From positions 186,439 through 250,438 of the forward strand of contig NZ_JAKEDV010000001.1 in assembly GCF_021462505.1 (NCBI RefSeq): 64,000 nucleotides of DNA, written 5' to 3'. Origin of the DNA: Thermus brockianus (GTDB lineage: Bacteria; Deinococcota; Deinococci; Deinococcales; Thermaceae). Under the pieces are notes generated by a model. That model was not told the origin of the DNA, searched no databases, and worked only from the letters and a program-made list of their open reading frames with translations. The translations under genes were made by a program, and so were the position numbers. Shown in pieces: positions 16,776 to 17,468 of the stretch (within the stretch, counting starts at the first letter, position 1; the number at the start of each line of letters is the position of its first letter).

Positions 16776-17317
16776 AGGCCCTCCCTTTCCCAAAGCTCCA
16801 CCCGGTCCTCCCCGTCCACCTCCTGGACCTTCACCTTCACCACCTCGCTTTTGGCGGTGGGGACGTTTTTGCCCACGAAGTCCGCCCGGATGGGAAGCTC
16901 CCGGTGGCCCCGGTCCACGAGCACCGCCAGGTAGATGCGCTTGGGACGGCCCAGGTCCATGAGGGCGTCAAGGGCGGCCCGGGCGGTGCGGCCCGTGTAG
17001 AGGACATCGTCCACCAGGACCACCGCCTTGCCCGTGAGGTCAAAGGGGATGCGGGTTTCCCGCACCTTGGGCCTCACCCCGATCTCCGTGAGGTCGTCCC
17101 GGTAGAGGGTGATGTCCAGGGTGCCCACGGGCACCTCCTTCCCCTCAAACCCGAGGATGTACCGGGCGATGCGTTCCGCCAAGGGGATACCCCTGGTGTG
17201 GATGCCGATGAGGACCAGGCCCTCCACGCCCTTGTTGGCCTCCACGATCTCGTGGGCGATGCGGTAAAGGGCCCGGCGCATCTCCTCGGCGTTCATCAGT
17301 TCCGCCTTAAAGCGCAC
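16772..17317 (-). CDS. pyrR: Pyrimidine operon attenuation regulator / uracil phosphoribosyltransferase
   Basis: 181-residue PRTase-fold RNA-binding regulator. The PRPP loop is [19 protein letters not shown] (about 96-114). PyrR binds a conserved hairpin in pyr mRNA when UMP is high, and may also have UPRTase activity. The GTG at 17317 has AGGGGGGT upstream and overlaps the end of the leader peptide. ATG at 17296 with AGGCGGAACTG is an alternative. It is the first gene of pyrR-pyrB-pyrC and autoregulates the operon through the leader described in the next entries. Confidence 0.95.
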
Positions 17318-17393
17318 GGCCTACCCCCCTAAAAAAGCGGGGGCGAAACCCCCCGCGCCGTTTTCCTTTTGCCGCTAGCCCTTTGCGCTTCAT
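17307..17393 (-). CDS. pyr operon leader peptide (28 aa)
   Basis: A short ORF starts at ATG 17393 with a strong ribosome site (AAAGGGGGG, 4 nt away) and encodes 28 mostly basic residues beginning [11 protein letters not shown]. It runs straight through the terminator hairpin and its U-run, and ends at TAA 17307-17309, 11 nt inside pyrR. A ribosome on this ORF must melt the terminator, so leader translation should allow read-through into pyrRBC. This is the ribosome-dependent attenuation proposed for Thermus ZO5, here visible base by base. Confidence 0.8.
17331..17356 (-). terminator. pyr attenuator terminator
   Basis: On the minus strand GCGGGGG (17356-17350) pairs with CCCCCGC (17343-17337) and is followed by TTTTTT (17336-17331). 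It sits inside the leader peptide and ends 14 nt before the pyrR start. Confidence 0.88.
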
Positions 17394-17405
17394 GTTTCCC
17401 CCTTT

Positions 17406-17423
17406 CCGGCCTCGCTGGACCGG
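17406..17423 (-). promoter_or_regulatory. PyrR-binding hairpin
   Basis: Minus-strand CCGG-TCCAGCGAGG-CCGG: a 4-bp stem with a loop that closely follows the PyrR binding-loop consensus (UCCAGAGAGG in Bacillus). The 3' arm abuts the leader-peptide ribosome site, so bound PyrR would be expected to block leader translation and let the terminator form. Confidence 0.8.
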
Positions 17424-17439
17424 TTTAAAGGCCACCCCC

Positions 17440-17468
17440 ACCTTACACCTTGGGCCTTTTGGGCGCAA
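17440..17468 (-). promoter_or_regulatory. pyr operon promoter
   Basis: -35 TTGCGC (17468-17463), 17-nt spacer, -10 TAAGGT (17445-17440). The predicted start at about 17433 is some 116 nt before the pyrR GTG, which agrees with the roughly 115 nt mapped in Thermus ZO5. The same TTGCGC -35 is found before glyS. Confidence 0.8.

Follow-up and report, generated by a model that had tools for sequence, protein, structure and literature searches.

We suggest that the leader ahead of the pyrimidine operon of Thermus brockianus is probably a transcription attenuator that depends on ribosomes, is gated by PyrR and has translational coupling built into it. The pyr attenuator is a 130-base switch, and each reported element of it is present in the window, i.e., the stretch of 64,000 nucleotides analyzed here. 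As judged from the window and from a comparison of about 110 leaders overall, the anatomy of the switch, the conservation of its reading frame, stop position, hairpin and promoter, and the lack of an antiterminator in the window are established.

Anatomy of the pyr leader and operon

All elements lie on the minus strand. The promoter, TTGCGC-N17-TAAGGT (17468-17440), has its TTGCGC box at 17468-17463 and, after a 17-nt spacer, TAAGGT at 17445-17440. Downstream is a predicted PyrR binding hairpin (17431-17401) of the form CCUUU-AAA-CCGG...CCGG-AAAGG, which is made up of a lower stem CCUUU:AAAGG, an AAA internal loop, an upper stem CCGG:CCGG and the loop core UCCAGCGAGG. The CCGG-TCCAGCGAGG-CCGG core (17423-17406) sits within this longer hairpin. 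The 28-codon leader ORF (17393-17307) runs from an ATG at 17393-17391 to a TAA at 17309-17307, and an intrinsic terminator (17356-17331) lies inside it, with a 7-bp GC stem and 6-nt loop at 17356-17337 and a T6 run at 17336-17331. The ORF ends within pyrR (16772-17317, GTG start at 17317-17315), so that the two overlap by 11 nt. The predicted transcript start, at about 17433, is 116 nt upstream of pyrR. An earlier note on this DNA had placed the promoter, hairpin, ORF, terminator and pyrR overlap at the same positions, base for base, and had predicted the same distance from the transcript start to pyrR.

The Shine-Dalgarno (SD) sequence of the leader ORF, AAAGGGGG (17405-17398), begins with the five bases AAAGG, which also form the 3' arm of the lower stem of the hairpin. 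Because this 5' half of the SD is common to both structures, a stable hairpin and ribosome binding should be mutually exclusive. The earlier note had held that the ribosome site is hidden by PyrR binding at 17406-17423. The hiding itself agrees with the shared arm, but the sequestering part is the lower stem CCUUU:AAAGG and not just that core.

The pyrR gene matches the equivalog model NF003549 with 260 bits (cut-off 138). The closest solved structure to its product is 1ufr, labeled by its depositors as a pyr mRNA-binding attenuation protein, and the protein is an orthodox PyrR. It is followed by pyrB, encoding aspartate carbamoyltransferase (15867-16775; NF002032, 369 bits), and pyrC, encoding dihydroorotase (14590-15870; NF006841, 723 bits). 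The likely ATG start of pyrB overlaps the pyrR stop as ATGA, and the end of pyrB and the start of pyrC share 4 nt.

Other Thermus genomes have the promoter, the hairpin, the leader ORF and its overlap with pyrR as well, and the leader SD overlaps the PyrR hairpin in all 27 Thermus genomes. The pyr promoter did not pass a generic sigma-70 scan of the window, since both hexamers are far from consensus. The putative promoter is supported instead by its conservation as TTGnnn-N17 (once N18)-TAAGGT at a fixed distance of 8 nt before CCTTTAA in 27/27 Thermus genomes.

The terminator was picked up by a simple terminator scan, and its predicted energy is -16.1 kcal/mol at 37 C and -8.5 kcal/mol at 70 C. 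For the PyrR hairpin only -3.4 kcal/mol is predicted at 70 C, with parts of the SD exposed, and the duplex of AAAGGGGG with the anti-SD is predicted at -15.1 kcal/mol. The difference between -3.4 and -8.5 kcal/mol at 70 C implies that the hairpin would need a protein clamp, while the terminator would form unaided. Thus, the hairpin alone should be a weak block, with PyrR as its clamp. The folding z-score of the whole window leader is unremarkable (-0.88), because the GC-rich background folds well.

Conservation of the PyrR hairpin

The PyrR model of Rfam, RF00515, which was built independently, aligns over its full length with the window hairpin at 33 bits, which on its own is below the gathering score of 54. 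The E value of this match is 0.24 over 4227 families, or roughly 6e-5 for RF00515 alone. The window leader also has the layout of the family, i.e., a UCCNGNGAGG core, a purine internal loop and a lower stem, upstream of a pyr gene. Among 33 diverse Deinococcota leaders, 97% of the pairs in the hairpin are kept, with 13 double-change cells vs 2.3 in shuffles and 0-7 in slid structures. The alignment of these leaders has 14 invariant columns and a covarying upper stem. The lower stem is nearly invariant, which is expected if it serves PyrR and the ribosome alike. A search model built from the same 33 leaders was run on 111 genomes of the phylum, apparently without Deinococcus species as judged from family sizes, and found the site in 88 of them, as a rule once per genome and mostly at the pyr operon.

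A second binding-loop match lies about 3-5 kb from the first in three genomes (G091, G093 and G094) and would represent a second controlled pyr unit there. Four other leaders (L032, L081, L085 and L090) carry tandem or stacked binding loops before the leader ORF, an arrangement that might provide cooperative control.

The leader frame stays open through the terminator

The earlier note had expected three features to be conserved, namely the binding loop, an ORF frame that passes the terminator hairpin and the pyrR overlap, and all three are. Openness was scored over the stretch that begins at the second codon and includes the U-tract. On this count, 65/65 scored terminator-bearing Deinococcota leaders have an open leader frame, and the other two frames are open in 50 and 41. 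Averaged per genus, the values are 17/17 for the leader frame and 10.5 and 11.4 for the others (P about 6e-4). Scoring from the first codon gave 66, 21 and 37 of 66, but this version is biased and overstates the difference, because leaders often start with ATGA, an instant stop in the +1 frame. With the second codon as starting point, the control frames are open more often and the P value is less extreme. For ORFs this short and rich in GC (control rate 0.645), frame openness is a modest test when taken alone. The count leaves out L024, which has no long T-run, L086, in which the U-tract has decayed, and L090, in which the tandem loops come without a clear terminator; the ORFs of L024 and L086 nevertheless cross the hairpin.

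The position of the stop codon is also kept. In 58/68 leaders it falls between -3 and +12 relative to the start of pyrR, compared with 19/136 for the other frames. In Thermus the stop is mostly a TAA inside pyrR codons 3-4 (+11), and in the Meiothermus-like genus g4 it is an ATGA (+4). In g4 the distance from the leader start to pyrR takes 9 different values, from 68 to 134 nt, with one frame kept in 14/16 genomes. Codon 3 of pyrR, a Phe codon, reads TTT in all cases where the leader stop is the TAA within this codon, and TTC in nearly all others, a pattern that is suggestive, though partly true by definition. A stop within the pyrR start implies, as far as gene layout can tell, translational coupling as a second output, which goes beyond the earlier note.

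We looked for purifying selection on the leader peptide and found none in these leaders, nonsynonymous changes being at least as frequent as synonymous ones. Outside the hairpin the peptide is not conserved, and there are no conserved regulatory codons of the trp type. Because the frame is conserved while the peptide is not, the act of translation appears to be what is kept. Ribosomes would thus have to traverse the terminator, usually ending at the pyrR start, and the peptide product would be irrelevant. In L069, L071 and L075 the ORF reaches beyond the terminator but stops 16-52 nt before the annotated start of pyrR, so the crossing of the terminator persists in leaders that have lost the coupling.

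Alternative explanations

An antiterminator is established in the Bacillota model species. If the Thermus leader were of this classical Bacillus type, an antiterminator would compete with the PyrR hairpin and the terminator, and the leader ORF would be incidental. The binding loop is indeed identical in kind. As a test, the best helix of the terminator 5' arm with the upstream leader was compared with shuffles. In the window this helix reaches -5.6 kcal/mol where -8.0 is expected (z +1.35), so that, in agreement with the earlier note, no antiterminator was found there. For 63 Deinococcota leaders z has a median of 0.0, i.e., at chance level, against -1.46 for 26 Bacillota control leaders, and Deinococcota leaders outside Thermus give no antiterminator signal. 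In many Thermus leaders other than that of the window, the terminator arm does have an alternative pairing partner and can form a weak helix with it (z about -1.5), and for L003, L007, L014, L016, L022 and L025 the values are about -1.6 to -3. This speaks for the Bacillus type, though the helix perhaps reflects one event, its carriers being close relatives, and it could possibly be a vestigial or auxiliary antiterminator. Since a Bacillus-type leader would also leave the conserved ORF frame and stop unexplained, we regard it as highly improbable.

It could further be that control is by translation only, with PyrR blocking translation of the leader and also that of pyrR and the operon, which would be coupled to it by the overlap of stop and start codons, and the hairpin-T6 element contributing little in vivo. 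The leader stops that overlap or abut the pyrR start (58/68) fit this explanation, as do five Deinococcota loci without a terminator where the hairpin is directly on the SD of pyrR. However, hairpin and U-tract are kept in 65 leaders despite differing stem sequences, the ORF crosses the terminator even in the three leaders that stop short of pyrR, and pyrR carries an SD-like sequence of its own. We therefore consider translation-only control unlikely. A variant of the preferred reading adds arginine: the Arg codons of the leader, 7 of the 28 in the window, would slow the ribosome before the terminator, and arginine shortage would lower readthrough. In Thermus ZO5, pyr expression reportedly rises about twofold with arginine, which would count for this variant. 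Against it, the richness in Arg is not kept outside Thermus, where arginine sensing through these codons is unsupported, and the purine-rich spacer yields Lys, Arg and Glu codons regardless. We give this variant very little credence.

A model for PyrR-gated attenuation

For the PyrR-gated, ribosome-dependent attenuator that we favor, we infer that PyrR binds, that the leader is translated, that the ribosome affects termination and in which direction the ligand acts. The transcript would start at the PyrR hairpin. When UMP is low, PyrR would be off the RNA and the hairpin, marginal at the growth temperature, would open. A ribosome could then bind AAAGGGGG, translate the leader ORF and physically prevent the terminator hairpin within it from forming. 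RNA polymerase would continue, and the ribosome stopping in the pyrR start would re-initiate or hand over to pyrR, with further handover to the overlapping pyrB and pyrC. When UMP is high, PyrR-UMP would clamp the hairpin, half of the leader SD would stay paired and the leader would not be translated, the terminator would form, and transcription would end before pyrR. The U-tract ends only 63 nt past the leader start codon, so the timing would be tight: a ribosome must load before the polymerase finishes about 60 nt.

Relation to known systems

The mechanism was put forward by the earlier note as an inference, but it has a precedent. For Thermus ZO5, Van de Casteele et al. (J Bacteriol, 1997) are said to have proposed that a translating ribosome prevents the terminator from forming, with no antiterminator involved, and reportedly found 3-4 fold repression by uracil and a transcript start about 115 nt upstream. 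The two loci are reportedly alike in genus, pyrR-pyrB...pyrC operon, start distance, lack of an antiterminator and role proposed for the ribosome. Nothing essential seems to differ at the locus; in the window, an intrinsic terminator lies within the leader ORF ahead of pyrR and the SD of this ORF overlaps the PyrR hairpin, and what is added here is the comparative support and the identification of the sequestered SD. Thus, the element was already known as a proposal and the concept is not new. To our knowledge the 1997 proposal has had no comparative test, and it now becomes a prediction upheld across a phylum. New are the conservation within Deinococcota, the same layout in Chloroflexota, Nitrospirota and Omnitrophota, and relatives without a terminator in which the hairpin is on the SD of pyrR.

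PyrR attenuation in Bacillus subtilis and B. caldolyticus (RF00515) shares with the window the protein, the binding-loop sequence, the hairpin and the intrinsic terminator, but it uses a competing antiterminator and no translation, where the window has a leader ORF. In the translational repression by PyrR reported for mycobacteria, the hairpin likewise overlaps an SD; that SD is said to be pyrR's own, with no terminator, whereas in the window it belongs to an ORF that crosses the terminator. As in enterobacterial trp/his and pyrBI attenuation, a ribosome on a leader ORF would decide on terminator formation. In enterobacteria, however, stalling or polymerase pausing senses the metabolite, while in the window a protein would gate initiation and the codons are not conserved. 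The five Deinococcota loci that lack both leader and terminator and have the hairpin on pyrR's own SD (L042, of the Thermus family, and L074, L079, L083 and L095) belong to the mycobacterial type. By this comparison, terminator crossing and start-site blocking both appear to occur with one sensor within one phylum.

Leader-ORF layouts in other phyla

A pattern scan was followed by model searches around genomes of three other phyla, which are those among the matches listed in the scan and not a census, with labels taken from the seed contigs. The PyrR site was found in 163/301 genomes for Chloroflexota, 135/246 for Nitrospirota and 148/235 for Omnitrophota. For each phylum the best-scoring 30 loci, as scored with the Deinococcota model, were considered further. 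Of these best-scoring loci, 43 have a terminator and a short ORF. An open leader frame is present in 32 of them, compared with 19 and 20 for the other frames (P about 1e-4); in the Bacillota comparison set the frames are open in 10, 4 and 7 of 24. This supports the presence of the leader-ORF and terminator layout in other phyla as well, less certainly per locus than in Deinococcota.

There seems to us an even chance that leader-ORF gating of a terminator by PyrR is not peculiar to Thermus but a widespread type of pyr switch that Deinococcota, Chloroflexota, Nitrospirota and Omnitrophota share, interconvertible with direct blocking of the pyrR SD, in which case a translational operator may have been the original form of the PyrR hairpin and the Bacillus antiterminator would be a later alternative. 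The comparison also points to one RNA-binding protein that serves three output devices, i.e., an antiterminator, a block of its own SD, and a leader ORF with a terminator, so that the evolution of attenuation can be followed in real genomes. In L263 and L303 the leader ORF passes the terminator and enters pyrR without a change of frame, as though the terminator had been turned into part of the pyrR coding start.

Surroundings of the operon

A gene for an SPW-repeat membrane protein (PF03779, 107 bits; 17513-17842, minus strand) lies directly upstream of the pyr promoter. The flanks upstream of pyrR in several other genera (L042, L059, L068, L078 and L084) resemble the end of an SPW-type gene, which is thus a conserved pyr neighbor with no known link to pyrimidines. 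An inverted repeat of 10 bp that ends in a T-rich tail (17475-17498, minus strand) directly adjoins the pyr promoter at its -35 box and is probably the terminator of the SPW gene. Between pyrC and pyrD, which is on the opposite strand, a Uma2-like ORF (PF05685, 22.5 bits, below the cut-off; 14120-14585, minus strand) seems to be split over two frames and is possibly a decayed gene.
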